From Ignatzschineria sp. RMDPL8A (GTDB lineage: Bacteria > Pseudomonadota > Gammaproteobacteria > Cardiobacteriales > Wohlfahrtiimonadaceae): a DNA stretch of 64,000 bases. The stretch covers positions 620,001 through 684,000 of the forward strand of contig NZ_JAPPWA010000002.1 of NCBI RefSeq assembly GCF_029815055.1, given 5' to 3'. Below are positions 9,857 through 63,268 of the stretch, one piece after another (the stretch's first letter is position 1; every line of letters begins with the position of its first letter). The notes beneath the pieces were generated by a model. That model was not told the origin of the DNA and did no database searches. It worked only from the letters and a program-made list of their open reading frames with translations. The position numbers and the translations under genes were made by a program.

Positions 9857-10348
9857 ATGAAAGTAACGAAATCCACAAACAACGTAAGTGAGCGCTGGCA
9901 GACACGTTTTCAGTTTTTTGATCAGCATGGCGGGCCGATGCGAAGTGAAGCGAAGCAAGCAATTATGGAGCGTCCTGAAAAAGAGCGTTTTCTAATTCTC
10001 TTTAATTTGGGGTCGTTTTTCTTGCCGGTGATTCACTTTTTAATGCTGGGGCTGTGGAAAAAAGCGTTAACGCTCCTTGTTGCGACGATTATCACGGTTT
10101 TAGTCTTTGATATGCCGTTACGCATGTTTGGCATTAACGGTTATTGGCTCCTGATTTTGGTGCCCTTTTTCTTCTCAGCGATGGCCAATTACAGCTATTA
10201 CTTAAAAGAGGTGAAAGGCGTGCAAGGTTGGAACCCCTTTGAATATCTCTCGGTGAATCTCAATGCACCAAAAGCGCCAGAGAGGGAAGCGGAAGAGTCC
10301 GAAGCAGAACAGCCAGAATTGGAAGAGCCGGAAAACGAGAAGGAGTAA
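9857..10348 (+). CDS. Small membrane protein, DUF2628-like
   Basis: 163 residues from the ATG at 9857, which has a good purine-rich ribosome site (GAGGAGAGAG); a longer frame from 9785 overlaps ligA and is less likely. Residues 45-115 hold two or three hydrophobic segments (FNLGSFFLPVIHFLMLGLW and following). The C-terminal tail is strongly acidic (EREAEESEAEQPELEEPE). The pattern of a short cytosolic start, membrane pair with LGLWKKAL and aromatic turn is like DUF2628 proteins, whose role is unknown. The trmO start follows 4 nt after the stop. Confidence 0.65.
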   Translation: MKVTKSTNNVSERWQTRFQFFDQHGGPMRSEAKQAIMERPEKERFLILFNLGSFFLPVIHFLMLGLWKKALTLLVATIITVLVFDMPLRMFGINGYWLLILVPFFFSAMANYSYYLKEVKGVQGWNPFEYLSVNLNAPKAPEREAEESEAEQPELEEPENEKE

Positions 10349-58057: not shown

Positions 58058-58507
58058 ATGTCCTTTGGTCGTTTACGCGGTGAGAGCAGTGCGCCGAAGG
58101 CGGAGATCAATATGATTCCGCTCATTGACGTGATGCTCGTCCTGTTGGTGATCTTTATTTTAACGGCGCCTCTTGTGACGCAATCGGTGCAATTGACCTT
58201 GCCGGAAGCGGTGGATCTGAAAGAGAAGAAAGAGAGCATCGAAGAGAAAAAGCCCATTATGGTGGCGATTAATGGCGAGGGCGAAATTTTCGTGAATGAA
58301 GAGCTTGCGGAGAATGAAGAGGCGATGCTAACGCTGCTTGGCTCGGCGAAGATGGCATTTGATGAAACCCATCCCGGTGAGCGCCCAATGGTGCAACTCC
58401 ATATCGATACCAAAGTGCAATATGAGGTGGTAGCAAAAACGATTACCGGCCTCAGTAAAGTGGGCTTAAGTAATATCGGCTTTGTCACGCTCCCCGATGA
58501 GGAGTAG
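58058..58507 (+). CDS. exbD: Biopolymer transport protein ExbD
   Basis: 149 residues, one membrane helix (about 22-44) with the essential Asp in INMIPLIDVMLVLLVIFI, followed by a periplasmic domain. It completes the tonB-exbB-exbD operon. Confidence 0.95.
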   Translation: MSFGRLRGESSAPKAEINMIPLIDVMLVLLVIFILTAPLVTQSVQLTLPEAVDLKEKKESIEEKKPIMVAINGEGEIFVNEELAENEEAMLTLLGSAKMAFDETHPGERPMVQLHIDTKVQYEVVAKTITGLSKVGLSNIGFVTLPDEE

Positions 58508-58551: not shown

Positions 58552-58574
58552 ACTCATCTACGGATGAGTTTTTT
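58552..58574 (+). terminator. Terminator after exbD
   Basis: ACTCATC (58552-58558) and GATGAGT (58563-58569) with a TACG loop and six T residues. Confidence 0.88.
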
Positions 58575-58682: not shown

Positions 58683-59453
58683 ATGCAGGAGCGAGAGAAA
58701 ATTAGTTGGGAGTTTCAGTTCTTGGAAAAAGTGGATGGGCCGGAATTTTCTGGGGAATCCTCCTTTCCGCGTTATCAAGAGATCCCCAATACTGTGCCTT
58801 CAGCGCGGGTAGCGCGGACGCTTTGCCATAAAGTTGTGCACGTTGACACGCTCTATCAAACGGCGCTAACACGCTTTAGTGAGTATCAAACATCGCCCAC
58901 AGAAAATGCGCTCTATCAATATGGATTTGCGCTCGATGGGCTCATTCTCTTTATGCGCAATATTCTCGATACCTTGGTGCAACTCACCTTTTTACTCACC
59001 AATCATGAGGATCTGCTTCGCGATCCCCATATTAAATTTAATGAGATTGGTAAATTTTTAAATCTACCGACGCTAGAGACCGATATTCAGCGGGTATTGG
59101 TTGGTGACGGGGATCATTATCTGCGCGACCCCAATTATGTGCGCATTGTGCGGGAAGTGATTTCGCGTAATGGGAAAGTGGCGGAGATGACGATCGAAGC
59201 GAATCACGCCCGCGGTTTTTTAGATGTGATCAATTCGCTCTCGAACAGTTTTAAACACTCCTTTATTCATGATGGGCTGTTTGGGGAGTCGGTTAATCGT
59301 GTAGAGCCCCGAGTGACGAGCTGTTTTGTAAAGTTTAATGCCTTTTATGAGCCACACATCTATCACGACCATCATCTAAAGGATCTCTATCTTGGATTTC
59401 AGAGTGAAGTAGTGCGTATTTTAGAAAATCAGCGCCGTTATTCTGTTTTATAG
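58683..59453 (+). CDS. Unrecognised 256-residue protein
   Basis: I do not recognise the family. The protein is predicted mainly helical and soluble. One long amphipathic-hydrophobic helix lies at about residues 80-103 (YGFALDGLILFMRNILDTLV), and a second landmark is INSLSNSFKHSFIHDG near 190. The combination of RN-x-x-D in a helix and a later N-x-x-KHS is reminiscent of HEPN-like helical proteins, but the RX4-6H motif is not convincing, so this is only a hint. It stands alone between the exbD terminator and a convergent acetyltransferase. An AAAGGG ribosome site precedes ATG 58683. Confidence 0.65.
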   Translation: MQEREKISWEFQFLEKVDGPEFSGESSFPRYQEIPNTVPSARVARTLCHKVVHVDTLYQTALTRFSEYQTSPTENALYQYGFALDGLILFMRNILDTLVQLTFLLTNHEDLLRDPHIKFNEIGKFLNLPTLETDIQRVLVGDGDHYLRDPNYVRIVREVISRNGKVAEMTIEANHARGFLDVINSLSNSFKHSFIHDGLFGESVNRVEPRVTSCFVKFNAFYEPHIYHDHHLKDLYLGFQSEVVRILENQRRYSVL

Positions 59454-59479: not shown

Positions 59480-59995
59480 CTAAAGTTTAACTTCCAGCGA
59501 CATCATATGGGGCGTAAAGCCTTCCTTTTTATAGAGCGCTTTAGCGGCCTCATTATTGGCTAAGACCGAGAGCTGGAGGCGTTCAAGTAACCGTTCGCGG
59601 CACCACGCTTTGGCCTCAGCAATTAGCGCCGTGCCGACTCCTTGATGACGATATGTTTCGGTAATGACAAGATCTATAATATAGCCGTAGCGAAGCGGGA
59701 CAAAGGTGTTATAAGGCGGCGTCGTACGCTCGGCAATTAATGCAAAACCGATCACCTCTTCACGCGGAGGCTCGGAAGTGTCGCCTTGTTTGATCGCAAG
59801 GAGAAAGTCCGCGTTGGGATTTTGAATCTTTTGGCGAATAAAGGTTTTGTCTTGCGATGCCCTTTGAAAATGCTCCGGATCGAGCGTTGCCATCACATCA
59901 AAAATCTCACGGTAGAGCGCCACAATCGCTTTGACATCTTTGTGTCGAGCGGGGCGAATGGTGAGCGGTGGCGTATCAGGCGGTTTAGCGTTCAT
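59480..59995 (-). CDS. GNAT-family N-acetyltransferase
   Basis: 171 residues with the GNAT core: LTIRPARHKDVKAIVALY at the start, IDLVITETYRHQGVGTALI as the acetyl-CoA loop (Q/R-x-x-G-x-G/A), and ANNEAAKALYKKEGF near the end. Substrate unknown. It starts 8 nt after radA, so they are co-transcribed. Confidence 0.88.
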   Translation of the reverse strand: MNAKPPDTPPLTIRPARHKDVKAIVALYREIFDVMATLDPEHFQRASQDKTFIRQKIQNPNADFLLAIKQGDTSEPPREEVIGFALIAERTTPPYNTFVPLRYGYIIDLVITETYRHQGVGTALIAEAKAWCRERLLERLQLSVLANNEAAKALYKKEGFTPHMMSLEVKL

Positions 59996-60003
59996 TTGGG
60001 GAA

Positions 60004-61371
60004 TTAAAAGAGATTGTCGATCACTTCAGAGATCTGCGCAACGCCAATCGCTTCCATGCCGGCAATCGGTTTTTTCGGGAGATTGGCTTTAGGCACAATG
60101 GCGCGTTTAAAACCGTGTTTGACGGCCTCTTTAAGGCGCTCTTCACCGTGTGGAACAGGGCGAACTTCGCCGGATAACCCAATCTCACCAAAGACGATTA
60201 GGTCCGATGGGAGAACTTTGTTTTTAAAGCTCGAATAAGCGGCTGCAATGACCGCAAGATCAGAGGCGGTTTCGGTCACCTTCACGCCACCAACCGCGTT
60301 GACATAGACATCTTGATTGCTCATCGCGATCCCTGCGTGACGGTGAAGGACGGCTAGTAGCATCGTCAGGCGATTTTGCTCAATCCCGAGTGTAACTCTT
60401 CGAGGGTGACCGCCAAAGGATTCATCAACAAGTGCCTGAATTTCAATTAAGAGCGGGCGCGTTCCTTCGCGGGTGACCATAATCACGCTTCCCGCGCCAA
60501 GCTCATCAAAACGGGAGAGAAAGATCGCAGAGGGGTTATTAATGGGGCGAAGCCCAAGATCGGTCATGGCAAAGACGCCGATTTCGTTCACTGGTCCAAA
60601 GCGGTTTTTATAGGAGCGCATAATGCGAAAACGCGAATCCACTTCCCCTTCAAAGTAGAGTACTGCATCCACCATATGTTCGAGTACGCGCGGGCCGGCA
60701 ATGGAGCCATCTTTCGTCACGTGGCCGACCAGAAAGATCGAGGTGCCGGTGCGTTTGGCAAAGCGGGTTAAAAGCGCGGCACTCTCCCGTAATTGCGCGA
60801 CATTTCCAGGTGCTGAGGTTAGATTTTCGGTAAAGATGGTTTGAATTGAGTCAACCACCATCACATCGGCTTTTAGGGGCTCTGCAGTATGGAGAATTTT
60901 CTCAACGGAGGTTTCCGATAAGAGCTGGAGTTTATCCCCTTTTAATTGGAGACGCTCGGCACGAAGGGCGATTTGGCTCGGGGATTCTTCGCCGGTGACA
61001 TAGAGAACATTTTGCCCTGTTTCGCTTAAGTGAATCATGGTTTGCAGTAAAATCGTTGATTTCCCGATCCCCGGGTCGCCGCCAATTAATACGACCGATC
61101 CATGAACAAGGCCGCCGCCTAAAACGCGGTCGAGCTCGTTGAGCCCTGTGGTAAAGCGGGCGTAGGTCTCTTTTTTCACCTCACTTAAGAGCTGAACGCC
61201 GGCAGTGCCAGAGGTGCCTGCGTAGCCGGAGAGACGATCGGGCACTTTGGTGGTGGAAACGGTCTGTTCTTCAATGGAGTTCCATGCTTTACAGTCGAGG
61301 CATTGGCCCGACCATTTCGGGGCGATGGCGCCACATTCTCGGCAAACAAACTGGGTTTTCACTCGGCTCAT
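60004..61371 (-). CDS. radA: DNA repair protein RadA
   Basis: RadA is a RecA-like branch-migration helicase. The four-Cys zinc finger (CRECGAIAPKWSGQC) opens the protein, Walker A is GGDPGIGKSTILLQ, the RadA-specific KNRFG motif is at SYKNRFGPVNEIGV, and a Lon-like C-terminal domain closes it. 455 residues is the standard length. The ribosome site is AGAGAG. Confidence 0.97.
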   Translation of the reverse strand: MSRVKTQFVCRECGAIAPKWSGQCLDCKAWNSIEEQTVSTTKVPDRLSGYAGTSGTAGVQLLSEVKKETYARFTTGLNELDRVLGGGLVHGSVVLIGGDPGIGKSTILLQTMIHLSETGQNVLYVTGEESPSQIALRAERLQLKGDKLQLLSETSVEKILHTAEPLKADVMVVDSIQTIFTENLTSAPGNVAQLRESAALLTRFAKRTGTSIFLVGHVTKDGSIAGPRVLEHMVDAVLYFEGEVDSRFRIMRSYKNRFGPVNEIGVFAMTDLGLRPINNPSAIFLSRFDELGAGSVIMVTREGTRPLLIEIQALVDESFGGHPRRVTLGIEQNRLTMLLAVLHRHAGIAMSNQDVYVNAVGGVKVTETASDLAVIAAAYSSFKNKVLPSDLIVFGEIGLSGEVRPVPHGEERLKEAVKHGFKRAIVPKANLPKKPIAGMEAIGVAQISEVIDNLF

Positions 61372-62166: not shown

Positions 62167-63268
62167 TTAAAGCCCCATCTTTAAGCTCGCTTCAATAAAG
62201 GGATCGAGATCCCCATCGAGAACCGCTTGGGTATTACCAGTTTCGTGCCCGGTACGCAGATCCTTAATGCGCGCCTGATCGAGCACGTAAGAGCGAATTT
62301 GGCTTCCCCAACCCACATCAGCTTTAGTGTCTTCAAGGGCACTTGAAGCTTCCGCACGCTTTTGCAATTCAAGCTCATAGAGTTTTGAACGAAGTTGCGC
62401 CATAGCGGTATCACGGTTACGGTGCTGTGATCGGTCGTTTTGACACTGGGTCACAATGCCGGTGGGAATATGGGTAATTCGCACCGCTGATTCCGTTCGG
62501 TTAACGTGCTGACCGCCCGCGCCCGATGCGCGATAGACATCGATTTTAAGATCCGATGGATCGATTTCAATGTCGATATTATCGTCAATTTCAGGGGAAA
62601 CAAACACAGAGCAAAATGAGGTATGACGCTTGTTATTGGAGTCAAAGGGCGATTTTCGTACTAAACGATGCACGCCCGTTTCGGTTCTGAGCCAACCATA
62701 CGCATATTCACCAATAAATTTAATGCTCGCCGATTTAATGCCGGCCACATCCCCATCGGATACCTCAAGCACCTCTGTTTTAAAACCTTTATCTTCACCC
62801 CAGCGCAGATACATTCGCAAAACGATCGAGGCCCAATCTTGAGCTTCCGTTCCGCCGGCTCCGGCTTGGATATCGATATAGGCATTCGCGCTATCCATCT
62901 CACCGCTAAACATGCGTTGAAACTCAAAGCGCTCGATGAGTTTGGTGCACTCATCAAGATCGAGAGCGATCAATGAGACCGCTTCCTCGTCTTCTTCCAT
63001 TTTGGCAAGGTCCAATAGATCTTTTGAGTCAGTAAGACGGTCGCGAAGCGCTTCCATGCCGCTCACAAAATCATCGAGTCTTGCTCGTTCTTGCCCAAGT
63101 TCTTGGGCGTGTTCAGGATTATCGTTCCAAATATTGGGATCTTCTAGCTCCATTAAGACTTCATCAAGGCGCTCCTTTTTTTGATCGAAGTCAAAGATAC
63201 CTCCGAAGTAGGGAGGCGCGTTCAGTTAAGTCATCAATGATATTATTTAAGCTATTTACTTCTTCCAT
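62167..63268 (-). CDS. prfB: Peptide chain release factor 2, with programmed +1 frameshift
   Basis: RF2 ends translation at UGA and UAA. The zero frame starts at ATG 63268 and gives 25 codons ending RRYL before an in-frame TGA (63193-63191). Shifting +1 at CTT-TGA-C continues as [12 protein letters not shown] and on to the stop, for a total of 366 residues. The slippery CTT and the internal Shine-Dalgarno GGAGG (63204-63200) are as in the E. coli autoregulatory site. The stop-reading SPF motif (VRKSPFDSN) and the catalytic GGQ (SGAGGQHVN) are intact. lysS, its frequent partner, is not next to it. Confidence 0.97.
63191..63204 (-). promoter_or_regulatory. RF2 programmed frameshift signal
   Basis: Reading the - strand: GGAGG, then TAT, CTT, TGA, C. 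The Shine-Dalgarno-like GGAGG is 3 nt before the slippery CTT, which slips to TTT in the +1 frame. Low RF2 favours the shift and so raises RF2. Confidence 0.96.

Follow-up and report, generated by a model that had tools for sequence, protein, structure and literature searches.

Between exbD and radA, the window (the whole 64,000-nucleotide stretch of DNA that was analysed) carries an orphan gene of an undescribed family. The genes and features of the interval are as follows.

58058..58507, plus strand: exbD (PF02472), the upstream neighbour
58552..58569, no strand assigned: stem-loop, likely a bidirectional terminator after exbD (7-bp stem, 4-nt loop, T's on the plus strand, T-rich on the minus strand)
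58683..59453, plus strand: orphan gene, complete open reading frame from ATG to TAG, 256 aa
59480..59995, minus strand: GNAT acetyltransferase gene, the convergent neighbour
60004..61371, minus strand: radA, the anchor of the interval

The terminator scan reported the hairpin at 58552-58569 in its minus-strand form. exbD and radA are convergent, and just the orphan and the GNAT gene lie between them. The original prediction had placed the orphan between a terminator and a convergent gene, and this is the arrangement found, with the hairpin on one side and the end of the GNAT gene at 59480 on the other. Judged by reading, the sole basis for naming them, the other genes of the window resemble housekeeping genes; neither a tRNA nor an integrase or any further mobile gene was recognised anywhere in it. 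One of these genes, prfB (62167-63153), has a frame without its usual first codons, presumably as expected under the programmed frameshift of RF2.

In the sister genus, the interval was compared in six genomes with exbD and radA on one stretch (G003, G005, G009, G011, G014 and G016), sister genomes in which they lay far from each other or on separate contigs being left out. All six intervals contain MFS, LemA and TPM-domain genes, which are absent from the window, and none of the six contains the orphan or the GNAT gene. Both genes are thus local novelties of the genus or species, and they may have arrived together. In one sister interval (G005), the LemA and TPM genes are separated by an inserted open reading frame of 3987 aa (L138 3707-15670) that carries an ESPR signal (type V secretion).

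The orphan is matched in a second genome of the same species (G774, locus L002, record JAAZCI010000040.1) by a copy with 93% amino acid identity. The start is the same in both, there is no indel across the 256 codons, and the second copy extends ten codons beyond the window copy at the 3' end. Between the two there are 34.2 synonymous and 19.8 non-synonymous changes (dN 0.034, dS 0.231, dN/dS 0.147). As change is mostly synonymous, the orphan is a selected coding gene; it is under purifying selection and evolves faster than radA (dN/dS 0.005 in the same genome pair) and prfB (0.015), so that the predicted complete 256-codon gene is a real one. Eleven of the 17 amino acid differences fall in residues 1-70 and six in the other 186. 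The adjacent GNAT gene, which shares with the orphan its absence from the six sister intervals, has a close dN/dS of 0.143.

The absence of a recognisable family, also part of the original prediction, is confirmed. Searches of Pfam, NCBIfam and PADLOC with the orphan protein returned nothing at E up to 10, and the clear match to a housekeeping family that would have spoken against it was found in neither Pfam nor NCBIfam. PHROG gave two weak matches (E 0.029 and 0.4), neither to a family of known function. Among PDB sequences, phmmer found one match at chance level for the protein, and the family profile described below found zero. Phage and plasmid records contained no relatives (sole match at E 2), and none were found in viral contigs, where the pattern INxxxNSFKH selected 21 and 32 stretches, none of them reading as a relative and mostly in short frames; their profile scores stem from the motif used to choose them. 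In the literature, the motif letters led to unrelated papers only. The family is undescribed in the protein libraries.

Relatives of the orphan and their integrase neighbours

Two divergent proteins from other lineages are related to the orphan, one certainly and one probably. P0002 (278 aa, genome G746) is identical to the window protein at 64 of 248 positions (26% identity, pairwise E 3e-18), and it scored 50.6 bits against a two-row profile built from the window gene and the copy in the second genome, far higher than any of 3000 shuffles or the decoy open reading frames. By sequence comparison, P0002 is certainly a true distant relative. P0003 (321 aa, genome G079) scored 14.6 bits against the same profile, barely above the decoys (13.9), which comprised 578 frames, including loci chosen as weak matches; the window copy scored as expected and was not counted as a decoy. 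Against a three-row profile P0003 reached 19.8 bits, compared with 11.1 for the best of 3000 shuffles and 13.2 for the best decoy. Its comparison with P0002 gave an E of 2e-5, and both conserved motifs are collinear with those of the rest of the family. On the grounds of the pairwise E, the shared motifs and the profile scores, P0003 was accepted as a probable distant relative. Residues 10-69 of P0003 (gene at L037 8749-9714) also weakly match a tail-fibre-assembly profile (phrog_105, E 0.011), a match absent in the other members.

The family is found in few genomes; as the samples of the separate searches overlap, the counts are not additive. Within its order, the orphan occurs in two of 32 genomes, namely the two of its species compared above, and the other two of the four matches (E 0.05 and 0.11) were discounted. 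The search of 369 genomes of the class matched 36, of which 34 (E 0.0175 to 0.65) were rejected as relatives; the remaining two were the genome of the window (G000) and, weakly, G079, whose E of 0.0015 is reachable by chance in 369 genomes. Similarly, five of the seven matches among 398 genomes of the phylum (E 0.01 to 0.05) were discounted, leaving its own genome and G746 (E 1.1e-6). Open reading frames were read at four weak-match loci (L006, L018, L024 and L030). A four-sequence profile, which its training members match by construction, matched three of the 369 genomes, two of the 398 and two of 106 relatives of G079. The third match of the 369 (G139) was rejected as a frame with four stops, and the second among the G079 relatives (G907) as a short, weak match of 47 positions. 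In 146 genomes searched around its host, P0002 occurred only in its own.

The surroundings of P0002 in G746 are as follows.

L036 7359-7433: tRNA-Arg
L036 7416 and 10286: 16-nt exact repeat of the tRNA-Arg 3' end
L036 7546-7947: tyrosine integrase, first part only, after the tRNA-Arg
L036, between the integrase fragment and P0002: IS3 transposase gene set
L036 9239-10075: P0002, on the strand opposite to the preceding genes

The repeat-bracketed stretch of 2.9 kb (L036 7359-10301) thus holds the integrase fragment, the IS3 genes and P0002, the sole visible cargo, and an ABC-transporter gene lies beyond the repeat at 10286. The stretch bears the marks of a small integrated element, possibly a minimal one made up of integrase plus cargo.

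The surroundings of P0003 in G079 are as follows.

L037 7802-8602: DUF6387 gene, next to P0003
L037 8749-9714: P0003
L037 9707-10960: complete tyrosine integrase, beside P0003
L037 11135-11223: tRNA-Leu, adjoining the integrase

On the side away from the integrase, P0003 is flanked by DUF6387, Toprim/primase, DUF3987 helicase and small-terminase genes. No tRNA-end repeat of at least 13 nt was found within 19.5 kb. Two papers that name DUF6387 both concern genomic islands, as far as their titles indicate. At both loci the integrase hits the same NCBIfam model, NF007246, with a score under the curated cut-off, and no known defence gene was recognised adjoining either relative.

The distribution and neighbours of homologues had been named in the original prediction as a check. 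The distribution proved sporadic, and both distant relatives, unlike the window copy, adjoin a tyrosine-integrase gene at a tRNA gene. A rare, horizontally scattered family best explains this pattern.

Conserved residues and the HEPN superfamily

Conservation among the window protein, P0002 and P0003 is concentrated in two elements of the orphan gene.

58956..58976, plus strand: codons 92-98, RNILDTL, a (R/K)xxLDxL element with L95, D96 and L98 the same in all three divergent members
59232..59258, plus strand: codons 184-192, NSLSNSFKH, with N184 and NSFKH invariant in the three members

The residues common to all three include L95, D96, L98, F179, L180, I183, N184, N188-H192, F194, D197, G238 and F239, and position 92 is basic (R/K) throughout; a GDG at 141-143 is common to the window protein and P0002. 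The original prediction had singled out an RN-x-x-D helix and a later KHS motif as faint reminders of HEPN-type folds. Of the former, R/K92 and D96 are kept and the N is not, being R in both relatives. The KHS region is well chosen, as K191 and H192 are kept in all members within the invariant NSFKH.

According to PMC3710099, proteins of the HEPN superfamily form a bundle of four helices. An insert separates helices 2 and 3, helix 2 bears an acidic residue, and helix 3 ends with an Rx4-6H motif in which the residue after R is mostly N, D or H. By the same account, some HEPN families are without the R or the H and possibly use other residues instead, and the Parep1/8 family keeps the HEPN fold with its active site changed. 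In the orphan family the canonical Rx4-6H is absent: the R position is S, F or H in the three members, and H192 is invariant and kept together with a polar N directly after the lost-R position. The window protein does have a single Rx4-6H, R42-x6-H49, which neither relative shares. With the R lost, the strict test for HEPN membership fails, but as the H and the following polar residue are kept, a site of HEPN-like type can be imagined. None of the three members (window protein, P0002 and P0003) was matched by a HEPN model of Pfam. Further, hhalign of the family alignment against one AbiV protein, from the single genome of 31 in which AbiV (PF18728) was located, gave a probability of 0.1% (P-value 0.72).

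AlphaFold modelled the window protein alone at pLDDT 37 and together with the same-species copy at pLDDT 43 (pTM 0.51). The low-confidence model is all-helical, which agrees with the helical protein originally predicted, and its predicted helices span residues 41-70, 79-107, 170-196, 204-222 and 230-254. In this model, R/K92 and the invariant D96 fall in the helix 79-107, and N184, N188, K191 and H192 in 170-196; the insert that separates these helices is variable. Foldseek found no match to the pLDDT 43 model at E 0.001 or below. The matches listed by Foldseek/VIA-align (best Z 8.5) are long helical bundles, namely HIP1R, F-BAR, CAP1 and McpZ, with no HEPN chain among these; such matches count as a common arrangement according to the tool note and come from a weak model. 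The proposed structure search against HEPN and AbiV thus gave only unrelated helical bundles among the matches listed, from models too weak to judge the fold. Of the HEPN hint, the predicted helices and the kept D96 and H192 stand and the Rx4-6H does not; the hint itself is neither borne out nor refuted.

Candidate roles

The family is likely cargo of integrative elements, and the integrase neighbours of its two relatives suggest a cargo gene for phage defence. According to PMC9122126 and PMC10121019, defence genes are carried in slots next to the integrase in satellites and tRNA islands, and because such slots are known for these genes, anti-phage activity is judged the likeliest single role. 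As a counterweight, what such elements carry need not be a defence gene, and two relatives are few. The best overall explanation, given slightly less than even confidence, is a helical cargo family of small integrative elements at tRNA genes that acts in defence or inter-element interference. A defence role, taken by itself, is given about the same, somewhat under an even chance.

In the mechanism proposed, the family would ride next to the integrase in satellites or small integrative elements located at tRNA genes. The window copy would persist between exbD and radA in one species, without a recognisable element; its ancestor was quite probably mobile. The likeliest role would be a single-gene anti-phage one, of the abortive-infection type, or inter-element interference. 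The likeliest chemistry would be RNA cleavage or binding by a cluster of (R/K)92-D96 and N188-K191-H192, which would resemble the HEPN active site minus the motif arginine, with other conserved basic residues in place. RNase chemistry of this HEPN-like kind is fairly unlikely.

Among the nearest known systems, beside the HEPN superfamily, is the integrase-adjacent cargo described for P4-like satellites and tRNA islands in PMC9122126 and PMC10121019. P0002 and P0003 resemble it in adjoining an integrase at a tRNA, and P0002 in being the only cargo seen in its stretch. Around the window copy, however, there is no element, and the elements of the relatives are without a recognised defence gene. 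The best addition made here is to connect the family with integrase-borne elements; at present the family is well defined, and its putative function is a testable guess. If the explanation is true, the cargo found next to integrases in satellites and small islands gains an undescribed protein family, a concrete residue set is available for testing, and the window offers an example of such cargo persisting alone amid housekeeping genes.

Less likely than the element-borne reading, and the leading rival to it, is an accessory gene of the host with some physiological function (e.g., stress or envelope) that was moved by elements in two other lineages and has no part in defence. The position of the window copy among housekeeping genes, purifying selection similar to that on the adjacent GNAT gene and zero defence-model matches for the family members (window protein, P0002 and P0003 against the PADLOC library of 2023) all speak for it, but the very sparse distribution and the integrase neighbours at both relatives do not fit it.

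Membership of the HEPN superfamily in the strict sense, as a true RNase toxin, is a decidedly doubtful alternative. The family shares with the superfamily (Abi-type proteins, AbiV included) its predicted helices, an acidic residue in an earlier helix and an H in a later one, as well as a suspected role in phage conflict. The invariant H192, the polar N after the lost R, the invariant D96 and the variable insert between the motif helices of an all-helical prediction recall the layout in the text of PMC3710099 that was available. However, the arginine of Rx4-6H is lost in all three members, HEPN profiles match none of them, and the fold is known only from low-confidence models with unrelated helical bundles among the structural matches listed. 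A minor Pfam match of P0002, to TLDc (E 0.002, below the cut-off), was judged to be chance, as were other minor Pfam matches.

Improbable, too, is a satellite or prophage function, in which the protein would hijack, block or regulate a helper phage and be kept after decay of the element. The gene set around P0003 is satellite-like and includes a small-terminase gene, and P0003 has the weak tail-fibre-assembly match at its N-terminus (E 0.011), but P0002 and the window protein are without that match, and the window copy is under selection without any element.

Finally, the most detailed version of the preferred element-borne reading, a single-gene anti-phage family on minimal integrase-plus-one-cargo elements at tRNA genes with a HEPN-like bundle in which an arginine-free N-x3-H site and the conserved R/K-D pair of another helix form an alternative RNase centre, is likewise improbable.
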